The notes under the pieces were generated by a model, which was not told the DNA's origin, ran no database searches, and saw only the letters and a program-made list of their open reading frames with translations. Positions 1-26,024 of a DNA stretch of 29,325 nucleotides are shown piece by piece (within the stretch, counting starts at the first letter, position 1; each line of letters opens with the position of its first letter). The DNA comes from a virus. Both the position numbers and the translations under genes were made by a program. The stretch covers positions 1 through 29,325 of the IMG/VR virus record IMGVR_UViG_3300046642_000359; one strand, 5' to 3'.

Positions 1-1251
1 AATGCAGATGTTCTGCCAGTTGAAAGTACTATTCTCAAAATTGTAGGCGACACCAGGGGCTGTGGAGGTGCTTATAAGCTGAACCCCGTTTCCGCCAGCG
101 ATTGATGGGCCGCTAGAGAATAGATTAAGAAAGTTGATGTTCGATACGCTTTTGACGGTAACGCAATCGCTCCACACGTTCGTCGCAAGATAGCCGTCAC
201 TACCACGGCAAGTGACGTTGGTAATGTCTGAAGGCGCGGTATTGGCTGGGTTTGAAAGAGTCGCAGTGGTCTGGTTGAGCGTTATTGCATCGCCACCAAG
301 CACGGCTCCGGCCAGAAAACTCATGTCCCGAATGTGGGCCGAGGAAAAACTTCCGGTATGGTTCAGATAGATTCCGCCATTGGATGCCCAGGAGAGTTGA
401 GTAACGTCCGGTCCAGCACCGAGGATGGTGAGAGAACCATTGGCTGGAATAGTGTACGTCCACATGGAATTGAACGCGAATTTTCCCGGCGGGAGAAATA
501 CGCAAACATTCGTGGAGAGGTTCTGGCTTGCCGAAACGGCTGCAGTAAGCGCGGCATTGTTCGATACAGTCCCGCCGTTATTTCCGCCGTACGCCATGAT
601 GTTGACGCAAGGAAGGCTATTCGCCACAAAGCCGGTACTGGCGGCCAGCGTGCCGTTATTCCCTGCTGCCTGGGTGCCCACAATAGCGTTGGATAGCGCA
701 GGGCCGGCCGAAAGCACTGGCGAACCAGAACCAGTAACGGCGAGGCCCAGTGCCGTGGCGACGCCCGTGCCGAGTCCAGTGATACCCGTCGATACGGGAA
801 GCCCTGTTGCATTTGTCAGCGTGGCCGCGGATGGCGTGCCGAGATTGGGCGTGACAAGCGCCGGGCTTGTTGCCCGTACGACGGAACCAGATCCGGTCGA
901 CGTGGCAACGCCGGTTCCACCTTGCGGGACCGACAGAGGTGTTGTAAGGCCGCTAAGGGACGTGATATTGCTATTCGCGCCCGCAGTCGCTCCGCTCGAG
1001 CCATTGAGAAGCGTCCCGTTCGTCGGCAGCGTGATATTGGTCGCGCCGGTCGTATTAAATACGAGCGGGTTTGATCCGGTAGTGGAGAGATTGCCGCCCA
1101 GCGTAATCGTGCTGCTGTTGGCAACACCGGTGCCACCATTTGCCGCTGTCAACGGATTTTGAAGTGTGAGGCTATTGAATGTCGGAGACGGATATGTTTG
1201 GGCGAGCGCCATCGTCGGCACAAGAAGTACCGAGAGAATGATTTTCTTCAT
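1..1251 (-). CDS. Tail fibre / beta-helix protein with Sec signal peptide (partial, C-terminus off the window)
   Basis: An open frame of 417 codons runs from ATG at 1251 to the window edge without a stop, so the C-terminus is missing. The first 18 residues, MKKIILSVLLVPTMALAQ, form a typical Sec signal peptide (Lys-Lys, hydrophobic core, ALA before Gln). Residues about 35-200 are low-complexity fibre repeats with GGTGVA twice (about 39-44 and 111-116) and the phage-fibre motif SPALVTPNLGTPSAA. From about residue 215 the pattern VNIMAYGG...NNAALTAAV...VFLPPGKFAF resembles the start of a pectate-lyase-3-like right-handed beta helix, a fold common in tailspikes. It is the last gene of the tail operon seen here. 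A receptor-binding or polysaccharide-binding role is inferred; no catalytic residues can be assigned. The signal peptide is odd for a virion fibre. Confidence 0.8.
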   Translation of the reverse strand, partial: MKKIILSVLLVPTMALAQTYPSPTFNSLTLQNPLTAANGGTGVANSSTITLGGNLSTTGSNPLVFNTTGATNITLPTNGTLLNGSSGATAGANSNITSLSGLTTPLSVPQGGTGVATSTGSGSVVRATSPALVTPNLGTPSAATLTNATGLPVSTGITGLGTGVATALGLAVTGSGSPVLSAGPALSNAIVGTQAAGNNGTLAASTGFVANSLPCVNIMAYGGNNGGTVSNNAALTAAVSASQNLSTNVCVFLPPGKFAFNSMWTYTIPANGSLTILGAGPDVTQLSWASNGGIYLNHTGSFSSAHIRDMSFLAGAVLGGDAITLNQTTATLSNPANTAPSDITNVTCRGSDGYLATNVWSDCVTVKSVSNINFLNLFSSGPSIAGGNGVQLISTSTAPGVAYNFENSTFNWQNICI

Positions 1252-1289
1252 TTGTTTTTCCGGAAAACCTTGGATTGCGGACGAGCAGG

Positions 1290-1514
1290 CTAGGAAATGG
1301 AAACAACCCCGTTGTTGTTCCACATAACTCCGGCCACCGAGGGCTCGGTCTTTGAGAGACTGGATGTCAGGGAGGAAACCAGGCCGCCACTGATGAATGA
1401 AATCAACGTGGAAAACGGCATCGTGCATTCAACGATCTGACCGTTCTGGATCTGCTGAATCGTTACGGTTTCATTGCCAGTGAGCGGCTGGGGAACGCCA
1501 TAGATGTGTGCCAT
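1290..1514 (-). CDS. Small tail-associated protein, 74 aa
   Basis: The ATG at 1514 follows the upstream fibre gene's TGA after one base (TGAAATG), so it is probably translated by coupling. I do not recognise a named family. The protein is uncharged and beta-rich and contains a Gln-rich stretch (TIQQIQNGQ). It ends in WNNNGVVSIS, which closely matches the C-terminus of the DUF2612-like baseplate protein two genes upstream (LWNNGGVISIA). That shared ending suggests a common attachment or trimerisation motif in the tail tip. It may be a small fibre-associated or fibre-chaperone protein; the function is unknown. Confidence 0.6.
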   Translation of the reverse strand: MAHIYGVPQPLTGNETVTIQQIQNGQIVECTMPFSTLISFISGGLVSSLTSSLSKTEPSVAGVMWNNNGVVSIS

Positions 1515-1515
1515 T

Positions 1516-2238
1516 TCAATATCCGACGGCTATAAAGCTTACTTGCGCAGAATTCACTGGCGCCCCAGCGTTGGAAACCACGGCGACGAGCTGGAAGCGC
1601 GTTGAGTTCGTGGAGATAGATGCTGCATTCGTTGTGATCGTCGTCCCATTGTTTACATAGTTGGCTAATGGAACGAGCAGCGCATTGGGAAACGGAGTCG
1701 CGAGCGTTAATGTGGCAATTCCTGACGTATTTGTGCTGGCCTGTCCCCACTGGATCATCCCCGTGACGAGCGACCCACCCACAGAAAATGGGAATTCGGC
1801 ATAGCCCGTTTGCGTGAGTGATGCAAGAAACTGCCCGAGATTGACTGCCTCATTTGCGATAGCGCCAGCAGCAATTGTCACGGGACTAGAAAACGTATTC
1901 GCGCCGCTCCATGTGTTATTGGCCCCGATTTGACCAAAGCTGGATTGCTGACCAGCAGTCGGCGGGCTGTATGCGAAATCTCCAGTAAGCCACGATAGGG
2001 CCGATGTGCCCTCTTGTCCGCGCAAAACTGTCAGCGTCGCCCCGGTTCGGGCTGTCGCATAGACAATTTCATAGTTCTGGCGAGTGGCCGAATCATTCAG
2101 CGTAATAACCAGCACCTGGCCGGCAGGGATTGAAGCCGGCAGGTTCGCGGTACTGGAAAGCGTAATGGTCGTCGCACTGGGCGACACCGCTCCTGCCAAC
2201 GTCGTATTGATGTTGTTGGCAAACGTGAAAATGGTCAT
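1516..2238 (-). CDS. Tail fibre protein with gp53-like C-terminal domain
   Basis: 240 aa. The N-terminal part carries a motif common in phage tail proteins (EIVYATARTGATLTVLRGQE, about residues 57-76) followed by DFAYSPPTAGQ. The middle is Ser/Thr/Ala-rich fibre shaft. The C-terminal part (about 145-240) has GYAEFPF, GMIQWGQ and LATPFPNALLVPL in the order expected for the gp53-like C-terminal domain of tail fibres (Gly-Tyr, then an I-Q-W-G strand, then TFP-x-A-F-P-N-A), which binds the host surface. It lies directly after the DUF2612 baseplate gene, as a fibre gene should. Unlike the two other fibre-like proteins in the window it has no signal peptide, so it is the best candidate for the normal cytoplasmically assembled fibre. 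Confidence 0.75.
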   Translation of the reverse strand: MTIFTFANNINTTLAGAVSPSATTITLSSTANLPASIPAGQVLVITLNDSATRQNYEIVYATARTGATLTVLRGQEGTSALSWLTGDFAYSPPTAGQQSSFGQIGANNTWSGANTFSSPVTIAAGAIANEAVNLGQFLASLTQTGYAEFPFSVGGSLVTGMIQWGQASTNTSGIATLTLATPFPNALLVPLANYVNNGTTITTNAASISTNSTRFQLVAVVSNAGAPVNSAQVSFIAVGY

Positions 2239-2245
2239 TTTTTAC

Positions 2246-3148
2246 CTATGCGATCGAGATCACGCCGCCGTTATTCCAGAGTTGGAGAGTGCCTACTCCG
2301 GGATTGGTAAGCGGCAGATCTCCGCCGCCGAGCGCAAGAAGGCTGGCCGCTGTGATAGAGCCGAAATAAACTGGAGGCGCCGCAGGATTGGGGGTAACGC
2401 CCGGTACTACACTCACAGTGCCGCCGTTGTACCAAACCGCTCCCGCCGGAAGGCCAAGCGAGCTAGTGGGATAGTTCAGCGGTGCTGTCATCCACAAAAC
2501 ACCGCCGTCATTGAGAAATCCGACGCTGACGAACTGGAACGTGTATTGGAACGGGACCGACAGGATGCTATTTGAGATGCATTCCTGTAATGCCGTATAA
2601 AATATGTCGTCGAATGACGTAATCGTGAAGACGTTGCCAGATACCGTAATCGAAGGCGGATCGTTGAGTACCGGCCAGTCCGATCCGTTAGCGCCGTTCA
2701 AGAATCGACTTACTCTGTTCTTGAGCCATCCGATAGTAAATACCTGTCCGTCTCCGCGGTATAGATTCCAGGTCATCACCCGCTTATAGATATCGTCGGA
2801 TGCTATGGCCGCGCTCCCGGACGTCGACTCCGAGAGATAGTCATAAGGAACAGTGTTGTATGGCAGCGTGTTGTATCCCGCTGTCGTCAGTGCAGTCTGT
2901 GACGATAGTACCGGTCGCGGTATCCCGTAGATCCCATTCCCAATCCAGTCGAGCAGTGGCCCAGTGATGTTCGGCGACGTGTACACGCCGAGAGGCGTCT
3001 CGTTGAACCAGTCGAGATATCCTTGACCCAGAGAGTTGTACGAAGCGACGAACGCCTGAAGATCCTGATCGCCCGAATATTCCCAGTAAAGGTAACTCGG
3101 AATGACGTTCTGTAATGGCAGTGTCGAGAATGATTCGATTTGTGCCAT
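2246..3148 (-). CDS. Baseplate wedge-tip protein, DUF2612-like
   Basis: 300 aa. It starts one base after the stop of the baseplate J gene (TGACATG). The N-terminus (LPLQNVIPSYLYWEYSGDQDL, with LDWIGNGIYGIPRP around residue 65) has the look of DUF2612 proteins, which sit after baseplate J and connect the wedge to the fibres, like gpI of P2. The last ~90 residues contain three related beta-strand motifs: GGVLWMTAPL, GAVWYNGGTVSVVPG and LQLWNNGGVISIA. The last of these recurs at the end of the 74-aa protein at 1290. Function rests on gene order and general resemblance. Confidence 0.7.
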   Translation of the reverse strand: MAQIESFSTLPLQNVIPSYLYWEYSGDQDLQAFVASYNSLGQGYLDWFNETPLGVYTSPNITGPLLDWIGNGIYGIPRPVLSSQTALTTAGYNTLPYNTVPYDYLSESTSGSAAIASDDIYKRVMTWNLYRGDGQVFTIGWLKNRVSRFLNGANGSDWPVLNDPPSITVSGNVFTITSFDDIFYTALQECISNSILSVPFQYTFQFVSVGFLNDGGVLWMTAPLNYPTSSLGLPAGAVWYNGGTVSVVPGVTPNPAAPPVYFGSITAASLLALGGGDLPLTNPGVGTLQLWNNGGVISIA

Positions 3149-3149
3149 G

Positions 3150-4583
3150 TCAGCCCTGTGCGACAGTTATGCCCGTTGCGCTACAGAAAAAGAACGACTC
3201 TGGGTCACCAGCGATGATGCTCGTGCCGGCTCCTGGCGTAGCAGTGACGCCGTTGATCGAGACCGCAAAAGTGAGAGTCGTTATGTTCGGTGCTGCGATC
3301 ACAGATGCAACAGCGTTCTGGAATACCGCAGTCATCTCGAGCAGATTGATCGGTTGTCCGACATAGATCGAGTTCAAATACGACTGCAGTGCCGGCGCGG
3401 CTAACTGGTTCACCGAGATTCCGGCAGTGAAACTCGGCAGCGTCGTGTTCCATGTAACAGCCACTGTGACAGTCTGCTGCGGTGGGTTCACGAACGTGAT
3501 CGAATATGCATCCGGATTCTGGAATAGCGAGACCGATACATTCCGCGGATTCGGCGTCAGCGTGGCGCCGCTTGCATATGCTCCAAAGCCAGTCCCGTTC
3601 GTAGTCGTCGTGATCGAGGTCGGCGTGACCGACGCGACCGTATAGGCCAGGTTGTAGGCGCTCGGGGTTGCACCAGTCACCGCGACCGTCTGCCCAGCGA
3701 TATATCCGTGATTCAGATTCGTCGTGATGACGACCGGATTGGCGGCGGACATGCCAGTGATGGCGAGTTGCGACCCCTGCAGCGTAGCAATATCAGGCAC
3801 ACCCTGAAGGATTGCGTTGGCTACTGCATAGGCATCCCCGCCCCCGCAAATTACCTGCCAGCCGCCGGCTACTGCATTGATCGACACGAGTTGTTGCTGG
3901 ACGCCCGTGATCTTGTAGAGCAGCGTCTTGAGATAGGCGGGCGTGCCAGTTGATGCGACGATCCCAGCTTGCAACACTTGGGCCCGATAATCCTGCACAC
4001 TCTGCGTCGTCGTTGCAGGTGTTCCGGCTTCGGGGTTGTTGACGGCGATCGAGCCAGTGTACGGGCTCGGAATCGAGGTGACGAACTGCGTTACCGTATT
4101 CGCGGGAATGGAGAATGTCCCGCTGGTCGTCGCAACGGCAAAAAGCAGGGGAGTGAAGCCGCCCGTCTCAATGACACCGCCATCCTGCAATGCATACTGG
4201 TTCGTACCATCGGAAACCGTAAAGCCCGGCTGGAGCACATAGCCTGCGGGGCCGGAAAACTGGACAAACACGCTGGCGTTAGCACCCACGCCTTGCGGGA
4301 TGCCGAACTGTGCGCCGAGTTGCGCCAGAATGAACGCATTGGCTCCATAGGGCGTTACGCTGTTGATGTACTCAACACGCGCCTGATCCATAGTGACGAG
4401 CGCGCCAACGTCGGTCGACGCGATGTCCTCAATCAGGCTCCCCGGAAGATTAGCCGTGTAGTCAGGATTGGTGGCCGCGACCCCGTCAACAAGCGCGGTA
4501 CGCAGGGTCAGTGGGGGCGTCGTAACCGGTCCTGCCGCCGTCATCACTAGCGGTACGCTCGCGGAGCTGCTGGTTGCGCTCAT
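3150..4583 (-). CDS. Baseplate J-like wedge protein with Ig-like insertion
   Basis: 477 aa. The pattern NLPGSLIEDIAST, GAQFGIPQ, followed by PYTGSIAVNNPEAGT and TTTQSVQDYRAQVLQ is characteristic of baseplate J (P2 gpJ/Mu gp47-like) proteins, which form the ring of the baseplate wedge. Residues about 278-345 look like an inserted beta domain (NHGYIAGQTVAVTGATPSAY...TVASVTPTSI). Related sequences occur in the sheath and the decoration protein of this phage. After the insertion the J fold resumes (FVNPPQQTVTVAVTWNTTLP). The ATG at 4583 lies about 20 nt downstream of an intrinsic terminator and has only a weak ribosome site, so expression probably depends on read-through. Confidence 0.85.
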   Translation of the reverse strand: MSATSSSASVPLVMTAAGPVTTPPLTLRTALVDGVAATNPDYTANLPGSLIEDIASTDVGALVTMDQARVEYINSVTPYGANAFILAQLGAQFGIPQGVGANASVFVQFSGPAGYVLQPGFTVSDGTNQYALQDGGVIETGGFTPLLFAVATTSGTFSIPANTVTQFVTSIPSPYTGSIAVNNPEAGTPATTTQSVQDYRAQVLQAGIVASTGTPAYLKTLLYKITGVQQQLVSINAVAGGWQVICGGGDAYAVANAILQGVPDIATLQGSQLAITGMSAANPVVITTNLNHGYIAGQTVAVTGATPSAYNLAYTVASVTPTSITTTTNGTGFGAYASGATLTPNPRNVSVSLFQNPDAYSITFVNPPQQTVTVAVTWNTTLPSFTAGISVNQLAAPALQSYLNSIYVGQPINLLEMTAVFQNAVASVIAAPNITTLTFAVSINGVTATPGAGTSIIAGDPESFFFCSATGITVAQG

Positions 4584-4594
4584 TTATCTTAGCC

Positions 4595-4620
4595 AATAAA
4601 AAAACCGCCCGAGGGCGGTT
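4595..4620 (-). terminator. Intrinsic terminator between fibre-like gene and baseplate J
   Basis: The 8-base arms at 4603-4610 and 4613-4620 are complementary (aaccgccc/gggcggtt). On the minus strand they are followed by a run of seven U. It lies directly after the stop of the 438-aa fibre-like gene. No comparable U tract exists on the plus strand. Confidence 0.85.
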
Positions 4621-4651
4621 GATTGCGTATCTCTGGTTCAGGACGAAGCGC

Positions 4652-5968
4652 TTAGCGACGACGACGCGCCCATATGGTTCCACCCGCTGTCATCGTTCCA
4701 CTGAACGTGGGGGCCGACGTTAGAAAGAGGGTGGCGGATGATGCAAGACTCAACCTGAACGAAGGGCACGGCATTTCAACGCCAGCGGTCGTACTGAAAC
4801 CCCCGAATAGCACACGTTGACCAACTGGCGCCTGCGCTGCGGAGGTGGTTGTCAGGCCAAAATTAAGGCCCGACGTACCGCTGGAAGCTGATCCCGTCCA
4901 TGAGCACGTCACATCCCAATCGCCTGCTGTTAAAGGCACTGAAGTAACGTTCGTCAATACCGTGGTTGTCTGTGCCACCCCCGAGCCTGTAGCGGTGATG
5001 GTTTCCCCAACGCTTCCGGCCTGCGCGCTGTCATTCGTCGTCGTGCTCGTCGCCTGAAGCGTGGTGAACTTGCCAGTGCCCGGCGCCGTACCGCCGATCG
5101 CGGGCGGCGATGCCAGATACGTGCTGAACCCAGTACCACTGACCGTACTGCTCGCCGCAAGCGTGGTGAACGAGCCGGTGCTGCCGCTGATGGGACTGTT
5201 CGTAATGCCATCTACCATCGTGACGACGCCGGTCGAGCGCGTGATCACGAACGGGTTATCGATGCTCGCGCCCGCATCGTTATTGCGTGTGATCTGGAAA
5301 TTCGAACCGACGTTTGAGCCGCTGTTCGTCGCGTTGTTACGGATAATGCCCCACATCGTGACGCCGCCGGTCTGCAAATACAGATCGGCGGTGTTCGCAT
5401 TCACCGCATTGACGGTCAGCGTGCCGTCACCGGAAGCAGGCGAGACCGAGACGGCGCCCGAGAACGTCGCCCCCGTCAGCGAAGCCGAGTTCGAATAACA
5501 CGTGAACCCAGTGCCGCTCGTGTATTGCAGCGCGCTCGTCGTCGTGCTGCAACTTGGCATTGCGAAGGCAGCCGGAGACGCGGACGACGCGGTGACGTTT
5601 GCGGCGACCGTGTTGGCGGCTTGCGCCGCCAAATTGGTCAACGGGATGGTGACGCCGCTTAAGGTCACGCCGCTGATCGTGCCGCCCGTAATGGCAACGG
5701 CATTGGTGTTCTGCGTCGCCATTGTGCCGGCGCCCAAGCCACTGAGCGCCGCAGGACCGCTGTTGGCTCCAGTTCCCCCAGATGCCACCGGCAAGGGAGT
5801 AGACAGGCCGGAGATCGTGCCACCGGTGATGGCCGCCAGATTGTTATTGGTCTTTGCTGCCAGCGCGCTATTGAGCTGCGCTGCGGTCAAGACCTGGCCA
5901 GACACGAACTGAGCATTGGCTGCGGAGCAGGCTAGAAGCAATGCAACAGCGAAGATGCGTTTCGTCAT
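4652..5968 (-). CDS. Secreted fibre-like protein, 438 aa
   Basis: The first 20 residues, MTKRIFAVALLLACSAANAQ, form a clear Sec signal peptide (ANA before Gln). The shaft contains repeated ITGGTISG units and SGGTGANSG, typical of phage tail fibres. From about residue 310 the sequence GSVGETITATGSG...NVTSVPLTAGDWDVTCSW resembles a C-terminal fibre head domain common in prophages (GEY...S-L-T-A-G-D-W-D-V). The start codon overlaps the wedge gene's stop as ATGA, so translation is coupled to the upstream gene. It lies between the wedge and J genes, which are normally adjacent, and is followed by a terminator, so it looks like inserted cargo. Either a virion fibre with an unexplained signal peptide or an exported surface protein is possible. 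Confidence 0.75.
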   Translation of the reverse strand: MTKRIFAVALLLACSAANAQFVSGQVLTAAQLNSALAAKTNNNLAAITGGTISGLSTPLPVASGGTGANSGPAALSGLGAGTMATQNTNAVAITGGTISGVTLSGVTIPLTNLAAQAANTVAANVTASSASPAAFAMPSCSTTTSALQYTSGTGFTCYSNSASLTGATFSGAVSVSPASGDGTLTVNAVNANTADLYLQTGGVTMWGIIRNNATNSGSNVGSNFQITRNNDAGASIDNPFVITRSTGVVTMVDGITNSPISGSTGSFTTLAASSTVSGTGFSTYLASPPAIGGTAPGTGKFTTLQATSTTTNDSAQAGSVGETITATGSGVAQTTTVLTNVTSVPLTAGDWDVTCSWTGSASSGTSGLNFGLTTTSAAQAPVGQRVLFGGFSTTAGVEMPCPSFRLSLASSATLFLTSAPTFSGTMTAGGTIWARRRR

Positions 5969-6375
5969 GAGAGCGTGGACTGGTCGAGAATGAAGGTGCT
6001 ATCGAGTTGCCCACCAGACAACCCATTGATCGTGAATATTTCAGGCGTCAAGATCGCGCCGCTGTGGCAAACGGCATTGACCTGGTAGACCGGGGGAAAG
6101 GCAGCCCGAACTCGCGTGATACTAAGAGATGCGAAATATGGGGCGAACTGGGTCTGCGTCTGTGAGGCATAGAAATCCGGCATGACTTGCGTCATGATCG
6201 TCTGATACTGAGGGATCCCATAATTACCGAAAAACGGAGACTCACCGAGGTTGAGTTTCAGGCATTGGGCAAGTGTGGTGATATAGACGTTGTCGTTGTA
6301 GCCGTTTGCGTCGGTTACTACCTCAACCCATTTATAGGTGCCGTCCTCGAAATACTGTCGTCCCCATGTACGCAT
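5965..6375 (-). CDS. Small baseplate wedge protein (gp25/W-like position)
   Basis: 136 aa. The core DNGYNDNVYITTLAQCLKL followed by LGESPFFGNYGIP is a pattern seen in small wedge proteins of simple contractile phages, next to the spike and J genes. By gene order it corresponds to the Pam3 wedge subunit after the needle, and to P2 W or T4 gp25. It would bridge the hub to the J ring. It is separated from the spike gene by the opposite-strand 106-aa gene. Its stop overlaps the next start as ATGA. The assignment relies on order and this motif. Confidence 0.65.
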   Translation of the reverse strand: MRTWGRQYFEDGTYKWVEVVTDANGYNDNVYITTLAQCLKLNLGESPFFGNYGIPQYQTIMTQVMPDFYASQTQTQFAPYFASLSITRVRAAFPPVYQVNAVCHSGAILTPEIFTINGLSGGQLDSTFILDQSTLS

Positions 6376-6398
6376 TGTTTAACTCTCAAGGGCTTAAC

Positions 6399-6719
6399 AT
6401 GAAAAAACTGCTTATCGCGCTGCTGTTCCCATGCTTTGCTTTCGCACAAGGCATCCCAGAAAACTGCAAAGCTCCGATGGCGCGCGATCTGGAGATGACG
6501 AATATTCCGTACCTCCTAGGTCTGCCAGACAGAGCGGCGCATATCGAAAAGATCGAAACGCTGGGCGGTACGCCGGCATATGAGATATACCCAGGTCGAT
6601 ACCGCATCGACTGCTATCTGAACGTCCACTGGAGCAACGGAACTGTCGACTATGGATACAGATTCAGTGCGTGGGAAGATCGCTATGGAGACGTCAAGGG
6701 GACGTATTCCCAGCACTAA
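6399..6719 (+). CDS. Plus-strand small secreted protein (candidate moron)
   Basis: 106 aa from ATG at 6399, preceded by a good ribosome site (AAGGG at 6388-6392, six bases upstream). The open frame extends further upstream, but this start is chosen because the ribosome site and the signal peptide MKKLLIALLFPCFAFAQ both fit it. The mature part (about 90 aa) contains two Cys (CKAP and DCYL) and aromatic motifs (YEIYPGRYRIDCYLNVHWSN), compatible with a small disulfide-bonded periplasmic domain. No family is recognised. It is the only convincing plus-strand gene among the late genes, and its TAA overlaps the TAG of the convergent spike gene. I see no clear sigma70 promoter upstream. A lysogenic-conversion or superinfection-exclusion role is speculation. 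Confidence 0.7.
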   Translation: MKKLLIALLFPCFAFAQGIPENCKAPMARDLEMTNIPYLLGLPDRAAHIEKIETLGGTPAYEIYPGRYRIDCYLNVHWSNGTVDYGYRFSAWEDRYGDVKGTYSQH

Positions 6720-24964: not shown

Positions 24965-25627
24965 TTAAGCGGCCCGTAATAGGCATGTCCCACAAGCCTG
25001 CGCAATATTGAATCCGGCAATCTCCGGCGCTTTCTGTGCAGCGGCCACAAGCTTGGCCGTGTCGCCTGCTTCCGCGCCTACGCCGTACCTGCGAACAATG
25101 CCGACGAACTCCTCGACATCGTGACCACGGATGCCCAGCTTGGGAGCGCCGTCTTTGGTGAATGCCGGCTCGCCGAACTCGTCTGTCTTTTGAGCAATGT
25201 GATAAAGCTCGTGCTCAACGAGCGAGCAGAACTCGACGTCCGAACACTCACTGGCGTACGTTGCATCAAGCGTGATGAGGTAGGCGGGGACGCGCCCGAA
25301 CCACTCGTGCATCTGCTGTTCTTGTCGCCCCTTCTGCCAGGCGCCACACCGGAACGTCACTTCTTCGCATTGCCCGACCACACGCCGCATCTGGCGGCTA
25401 TTCTCCTGAGCCGCCCATAGAAACTCTATGTCGGCGTCTTTCAGGTGAAAATGGTCCCGGTTGAAGAGCGGGGAGTGCTCGTCCAGCAAAACTGAATGCA
25501 CCCACTGGACAACACCCTCGGCGGGCGCGAACCGCTTGAGCCAATTCTCCGCATCGAACAGGAAACTGGGCGGCTTTGGCCGGTCAGCGAAAGCTTTTAA
25601 CTCGTCTTTTGGTTTTCGCGTTGCCAT
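24965..25627 (-). CDS. Putative phage metallopeptidase (HELYH)
   Basis: 220 aa from the ATG at 25627; the open frame continues upstream into the repeat-protein gene, but those codons do not resemble the family. Residues 139-143 are His-Glu-Leu-Tyr-His, a zincin HExxH motif, within SLVEHELYHIAQ. A conserved RGHDVEEFVGIVRRYG follows (166-181), which may supply the third metal ligand. Upstream parts FLWAAQENSRQMRRVVGQ and WQKGRQEQQMHEWFGRVPAY fit the putative phage metallopeptidase family often found just before terminase genes. Substrate unknown; prohead processing or anti-host activity are both open. Ribosome site weak. Confidence 0.75.
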   Translation of the reverse strand: MATRKPKDELKAFADRPKPPSFLFDAENWLKRFAPAEGVVQWVHSVLLDEHSPLFNRDHFHLKDADIEFLWAAQENSRQMRRVVGQCEEVTFRCGAWQKGRQEQQMHEWFGRVPAYLITLDATYASECSDVEFCSLVEHELYHIAQKTDEFGEPAFTKDGAPKLGIRGHDVEEFVGIVRRYGVGAEAGDTAKLVAAAQKAPEIAGFNIAQACGTCLLRAA

Positions 25628-25664
25628 ATATTTCTTGCGGCTCGCGGACCATTGGAAGAATTCT

Positions 25665-26024
25665 CTAGTTAATCCGCCAAACCGAGATAGCCCCACCTGC
25701 GGCATTCTGCCCATTCGGATACGCCGCAGCGTGCGCCGGCAAAGTCGTTGCGTCCCATACCGGGATAGCGCCGTTCTGCCCCTGGTCACTCGGGAACGGT
25801 CCATTGCCAGTCGGCGCGCTCACGACACGAACCGGAATGGCTCCAGCGGCCTTTGATTGGTCATTGGGCCACGGTCCAGCGCCCGGCTGCGAGACGAACA
25901 CAACGGGAATCGCGCCGTTCGCCTTGCTCTGGATGTTCGGCCACGGCCCGCTATTGGGCTGCGAGACGATGTAGACGGGGATTGCGCCCGCGGCCTGATT
26001 TTGCGCACTTGGATAGGTCATCAT
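25665..26024 (-). CDS. Tandem-repeat protein, five ~24-aa units, 119 aa
   Basis: The start at 26024 overlaps the stop of the upstream phosphoesterase gene (ATGA). The entire protein is built of about five repeats with the plan W/Y-P-N-x-Q-x-K/Q-A-x-G-A-I-P-V-x-x-V-S-x-P-x-x-G-P; the clearest copies are WPNIQSKANGAIPVVFVSQP and WPNDQSKAAGAIPVRVVSAP. The last copy is degenerate (GGAISVWRIN). The open frame extends further upstream as a shadow of the phosphoesterase gene. I do not recognise a characterised family. The strand-turn pattern suggests a beta-solenoid or prism-like fold; a structural or decoration role is possible. Confidence 0.7.
   Translation of the reverse strand: MMTYPSAQNQAAGAIPVYIVSQPNSGPWPNIQSKANGAIPVVFVSQPGAGPWPNDQSKAAGAIPVRVVSAPTGNGPFPSDQGQNGAIPVWDATTLPAHAAAYPNGQNAAGGAISVWRIN

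Follow-up and report, generated by a model that had tools for sequence, protein, structure and literature searches.

Results

Gene content of the window and its relatives

The window, meaning the whole stretch of DNA analysed here, is the entire IMG/VR record IMGVR_UViG_3300046642_000359 (29,325 bases), which is probably a fragment. It belongs to a contractile-tail phage, whose terminase, portal, capsid, sheath, lytic tail protein, hub, spike, baseplate J and fibre genes lie on the minus strand. A signal-bearing fibre gene of what we call type A, F1 (1–1251, minus strand), is truncated at its 3′-end by the contig boundary, which leaves 417 aa; these form a GGTG-rich shaft followed by the start of a pectate-lyase-like beta-helix. 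The shaft resembles the tail fibre of phage SU10 (PDB 7z47). Upstream of F1 is the gene of a 74-aa protein without a signal peptide, S74 (1290–1514, minus strand), which in most relatives likewise lies ahead of the type A fibre. It is followed on the map by F53 (1516–2238, minus strand), a tail protein I-like gene (phrog_8212; 2246–3148, minus strand) and a baseplate J-like wedge gene (3150–4583, minus strand). The second signal-bearing fibre, F2 (4652–5968, minus strand), is of a different type (type B). Its start codon overlaps with the stop codon of the preceding gene, which encodes w86, a baseplate-region protein in its long 136-aa form (phrog_7986; 5965–6375, minus strand). An intrinsic terminator-like hairpin lies after F2 (4603–4620, minus strand), and similar hairpins are found after most type B fibres in relatives. 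On the plus strand, antisense to the tail operon, is a gene for a small, predicted exported protein of 106 aa, P106 (6399–6719).

F53 is a conventional fibre without a signal peptide. Its N-terminal ~100 aa correspond to the anchor of the long fibres in Klebsiella, Pantoea and Yersinia relatives, and its C-terminus is of the gp53-like fibre type, in keeping with the original prediction that virion fibre function would fall on this gene. The idea that the long enterobacterial fibre is a replacement by position was dropped, as that fibre is itself a member of the F53 family.

No close full-sequence relatives of F2 or P106 were found in the viral collection, and anchoring on neighbouring genes retrieved them. 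In this way 105 viral loci were collected, each of which was aligned to the gene order of the window. Three slots could be mapped in the gene order of these relatives. An F1-like type A fibre occupies slot Z, after S74. In a minority of loci, an F2-like type B fibre fills slot Y, which lies between w86 and baseplate J. Slot X is located between the spike and w86 and is often the site of P106, encoded on the opposite strand and adjoining a gene of ~215 aa.

Several other features of the window and the related loci were recorded. A transposase-like ORF (phrog_513) is found near the terminase genes of the window (24965–25804), with no flanking inverted repeats of at least 14 bases. In the Klebsiella and Yersinia relatives, the fibre is separated from tail protein I by exported or lipoprotein-like genes (L119:9166–9858 and L121:9181–9813). 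Antisense membrane-protein genes follow the fibre in two others, one encoding a DUF2142 protein (L006:13882–14820) and one an acyltransferase (L002:8054–9106), as expected of surface-sugar modification. Records OK094664 and OP650936 have equal length and the same matches, with Shewanella and a Tenericutes bacterium as their respective listed hosts, so at least one of these labels looks doubtful.

Predicted Sec signals and their cleavage sites

The N-terminus of F1 is MKKIILSVLLVPTMALA followed by QTYPSP, that of F2 is MTKRIFAVALLLACSAANA followed by QFVSGQ, and that of P106 is MKKLLIALLFPCFAFA followed by QGIPEN. The predicted Sec signal peptides comprise 17 aa in F1 (1201–1251, minus strand), 19 aa in F2 (5912–5968, minus strand) and 16 aa in P106 (6399–6446, plus strand). 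All have a positive n-region, an uncharged h-region, A or G at position −1 and a small residue at −3. They were assessed with a rule-based test for Sec and signal peptidase I, which scores n-region charge, an uncharged h-region and the −3/−1 rule. The test was checked on a dozen E. coli-type signal peptides, and is imperfect in that it accepted all of these but PhoA, placed beta-lactamase just under its stricter cut-off and gave LacY a low score.

Exactly three of the 30 genes in the window pass this rule, namely F1 (ALA before Gln), F2 (ANA before Gln) and P106 (AFA before Gln), while it is passed by 0 of 408 orthologous tail proteins from related loci (hub, spike, wedge, J, I, fibre and small protein). 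The three N-termini are as originally described. Hydrophobic composition alone carries 1–13% of shuffled N-termini past the rule. The signals of F1 and F2 are conserved in many relatives and that of P106 in ~20, which argues against chance. Two other kinds of export were rejected: inspection shows KK in F1 and KR in F2, with no twin-arginine motif, and lipobox-like sequences amount to about one chance match per type.

Across the fibres compared, 95 distinct ones of type A and 27 of type B, position −1 is A or G, and −3 is mostly A over both types and mostly A or V in type A. Gln occupies +1 in 92/95 type A and 27/27 type B fibres, counts that are partly preselected by scan patterns and a type B regular expression that favour Gln; sequence counts among relatives are not independent events. 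Among 93 type A relatives, pN/pS is 0.80 in the h-region versus 0.165 in mature residues +1 to +8, the module QTYPSPTF of F1 (1177–1200, minus strand). The corresponding mature N-terminal module of F2 is QFVSGQVLTAAQLN (5870–5911, minus strand). A drifting h-region before a nearly fixed mature start is the pattern to be expected of a cleavable signal that precedes a functional N-terminus, unlike that of a protein–protein anchor. The signals of F1 and F2 appear to be genuine Sec-type signals, and export of both fibres is predicted. A holin-like switch between dual start codons inside the signal was rejected, since relatives do not conserve the internal Met of F1.

Type A fibres turned up in many further phages when the scans were extended; Paraburkholderia, Caballeronia, Pararobbsia and Rhizobiales are among the hosts. 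Many relatives have beta-helix or pectate-lyase-like domains, and a T4 Gp34 trimerisation domain is present in one relative that bears the signal. Type B fibres are found in Bcep781, Bcep43 and soil contigs. In Shewanella phage vB_Sb_QDWS (OK094664), a signal-bearing fibre of 687 aa (L002:5998–8061) is mis-annotated: a GTG ORF has been called on the opposite strand and the start of the fibre shifted 800 bases inward. In loci with two fibres in tandem (L013:4009–4090, also L027, L061 and L112), an intrinsic terminator encodes the signal peptide of the second fibre; GGCCGCCTTCGAGGCGGCTTTTTTATTGG reads LAAFEAAFLL, so that one element serves both as the terminator after the first fibre and as the hydrophobic core of the signal that follows.

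Peptides at the C-termini of upstream proteins

S74 ends in the peptide WNNNGVVSIS (motif A; 1293–1322, minus strand), which is proposed to dock with the type A module. Its consensus, LPT..P...G.LWNNGGV.S.S, ends the upstream gene in 84 of 94 type A cases, and these upstream genes vary in length from about 65 to 360 aa. The C-terminal peptide of w86, QLDSTFILDQSTLS (motif B; 5968–6009, minus strand), is present when a type B fibre follows. Its consensus, LD..F.L..S.L, ends the upstream gene in 24 of 27 type B cases and is found on several unrelated proteins before type B fibres, including Bcep781 gp50. Among other tail proteins the background is 1/287 for motif A and 0/287 for motif B. The 134–136-aa form of w86 with the motif B tail occurs in the window and in all 12 loci with a type B fibre; a long w86 without such a fibre occurs at one locus (L024), possibly through a loss. 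At the DNA level, synonymous sites vary freely while the residues are kept, and a role for either motif as a DNA signal was rejected.

Tail protein I (2246–3148) ends LWNNGGVISIA, much like the S74 peptide, yet precedes the conventional fibre F53. With no signal-bearing gene after it, this ending means that motif A alone is not specific, and LWNNGGV may be a general docking tail.

Fibres without a signal

A third type (type C) is found in podophages BcepC6B and PBR31 and their relatives. Each of the three types has rare members without a signal, which begin directly at the module. Signal-less type A fibres start with MSAYPSPTF or MSTYPSPVF (MS[AT]YPSP), those of type B with MSNFTSGQILTASQLN (beginning MSNFTSGQ) and those of type C with MSTSPTLVPVQL. 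Once the initiator Met is removed, as expected before Ser, the N-termini of the signal-less type A fibres line up exactly with those predicted for the mature fibres. Two signal-less type B fibres keep motif B on the upstream gene; the signal-less type A fibres have no motif A neighbour. This set is the strongest indication that the mature N-terminus would act jointly with the upstream peptide during virion assembly, irrespective of whether the fibre is exported.

Fibre-tip domain and cysteine content

The last ~140 residues of F2 (4655–5071, minus strand) form a C-terminal fibre-tip domain that matches the virion tail fibre gp47 of Pectobacterium phage PhiM1 (PDB 8vbx) with an E-value of 9.4e-20. 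Six trimeric gp47 fibres are reported on the PhiM1 virion (PMC11440229). The same domain occurs both on fibres that bear the signal and on ~28 whose N-terminal anchors are of other kinds. The structural model of the F2 tip is confident (pLDDT 85) and its predicted fold resembles fibre tips, including those of cyanophage short tail fibres and of the Bdellovibrio mosaic adhesive trimer (MAT) fibre Bd2734. Like tail fibres in general, F1 and F2 are encoded with baseplate genes and have shaft and tip domains homologous to those of virion fibres.

Among fibres that share one C-terminal domain, those with a signal contain 0.98 Cys per 100 aa versus 0.31 in those without (p = 1e-8). Slot Z fibres have more Cys than F53 and other virion proteins, and a C-X16-C pattern recurs in type B fibres. 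This enrichment fits an oxidising compartment. The signal-less type B fibres are likewise cysteine-rich and the sequences are related, which weakens the argument and makes it moderate evidence.

P106, a small, predicted exported protein

P106 is unrelated to F1 and F2. The original prediction treated the three signal-bearing proteins as one set; P106 has to be considered separately. In its family two cysteines are invariant (18/18), as are 38 alignment columns. No match was found in Pfam, PHROGs, NCBIfam, PADLOC or PDB sequences, nor any significant fold match. As in morons, the gene is an extra one between tail genes and is absent from some relatives. Morons also have a promoter and terminator of their own, and here a scan for E. 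coli-type signals found neither in consensus form adjoining the gene. P106 resembles the lambda lom-type exported gene, which also has a signal peptide and lies between tail genes. The products differ: Lom is an outer-membrane barrel, whereas P106 is a soluble-looking protein of ~90 aa with two cysteines and no relatives detected in the family libraries. Judging from sequence, it is probably a moron-like exported disulphide protein that acts in the host envelope during infection or lysogeny, with superinfection exclusion or a surface change as the likeliest role.

The ~215-aa gene that adjoins P106 in relatives (MPETYPPSFFTHENL..., e.g. L022:6557–7210) has no family match, and in the window P106 occurs without this neighbour (6376–6398). 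The P106 region of the distant relatives Rac-SA53 and pPE4 holds other exported genes, and an antirepressor and an exported 182-aa protein are found there on the opposite strand, before baseplate J (L122:5108–6976 and L123:5921–6976).

Discussion

Tail fibres are usually taught as cytoplasmic parts. Our reading of F1 and F2 is that they are, on balance, probably virion fibres (receptor-binding proteins) whose N-terminal module includes a cleavable Sec signal, with export followed by late docking. The fibre would be made together with the tail operon and exported by Sec, and signal peptidase I would cut between Ala and Gln to expose the fixed mature N-terminus, as the sequence conservation suggests. 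In the periplasm it would fold, trimerise and form disulphides, to which the cysteine enrichment points. At or after lysis, the mature N-terminus would dock on the C-terminal peptide of a virion protein encoded upstream, motif A on S74 for F1 and motif B on w86 for F2. This last step is proposed because the two peptides pair almost exclusively and because signal-less homologues exist. Export first and docking later would be the simplest account of a signal, a fixed mature N-terminus, partner peptides and a virion-type tip. The complete scheme, in which fibre assembly is split over two compartments by Sec, periplasmic disulphides and trimers, and a module-specific peptide handshake after lysis, is advanced more tentatively, as an idea that could prove right or wrong. 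Against the virion-fibre reading is the fact that a conventional fibre, F53, is already encoded, and no precedent for Sec-exported fibres of tailed phages was found in the partial library of literature searched.

A less probable alternative, though one to be taken seriously, is that the fibres are exported and never join the virion, instead binding or cutting glycans in the periplasm or at the surface of the infected cell or lysogen. They could then mask receptors, exclude other phages or free progeny from debris. The genuine signal peptide, the beta-helix or pectate-lyase-like domains in many relatives and the membrane-protein and acyltransferase genes that adjoin the fibre in relatives are all consistent with such a role; F53 would be available as the virion fibre, and the MAT proteins of Bdellovibrio are fibre-like proteins that are exported and are not virion parts (PMC10769870). 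This alternative would leave unexplained why baseplate and tail proteins carry paired C-terminal peptides and why homologues without a signal share both the N-terminus and the partner peptide, and there is no apparent route across the outer membrane. The original prediction went further, holding that export bars these fibres from the virion and raising a role in the lysogen. The paired upstream peptide, the signal-less homologues and the virion-type tip domain argue against the first claim, and obligately lytic phages such as Bcep781, which also carry such a fibre, argue against a role confined to lysogens.

That the hydrophobic N-terminus is an uncleaved virion anchor or loading signal, with no export, is improbable. 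The tail in the window is contractile, and loading leaders are known in the Photorhabdus contractile injection system; those leaders are disordered and 50–70 aa long (PMC11495950), whereas the signals here are hydrophobic and 16–26 aa long. An anchor used in an unexpected way, as first suggested, is also disfavoured in that the h-region drifts while positions −3, −1 and +1, and with them the cleavage site and mature N-terminus, are kept; furthermore, the same kind of signal is found on three unrelated modules, and the signal-less versions begin at the mature residue. Chance hydrophobic starts or misread start codons, which the pass rate of shuffled N-termini might suggest, are very improbable and already contradicted by conservation in ~120 relatives and by the 0/408 controls.

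The signal-bearing fibres have a close counterpart in gp49 of Bcep781 and gp48 of Bcep43 (Burkholderia phages, Naesvirus), each a type B signal-bearing fibre whose upstream protein ends in motif B. The record of Bcep781 gp49 notes a ‘possible tail fiber; possible signal peptide domain’, as a single-gene oddity and without a class or a partner peptide. To our knowledge, there has been no experiment on either protein. The signal had thus been noticed for one gene; no description of the fibre class, its conservation, its partner peptides or its signal-less counterparts turned up in the papers of the partial library searched. Bdellovibrio MAT fibres are likewise phage-tail-fibre-like trimers with a signal peptide, but they are encoded by the bacterium, displayed on its surface and not paired with virion genes. 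They have a beta-rich domain of ~130 aa directly after the signal, whereas the modules of types A, B and C appear by inspection to be short shaft starts. PhiM1 gp47, the homologue of the F2 tip, differs in its N-terminal region and has T7-like helical bundles in the trimers on the virion (PMC11440229).

Automatic annotation misses starts of this kind, as in Shewanella phage QDWS, and a signal peptide, a fixed mature peptide and a partner peptide on the upstream gene together offer a rule for annotating them. If the whole class is exported first, phage assembly would go on after lysis, fibres would be exchangeable between co-infecting phages, and fibre folding could draw on the host disulphide machinery. 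Even if they never join the virion, these proteins would form a broad and so far unnamed class of exported phage glycan-binding proteins.
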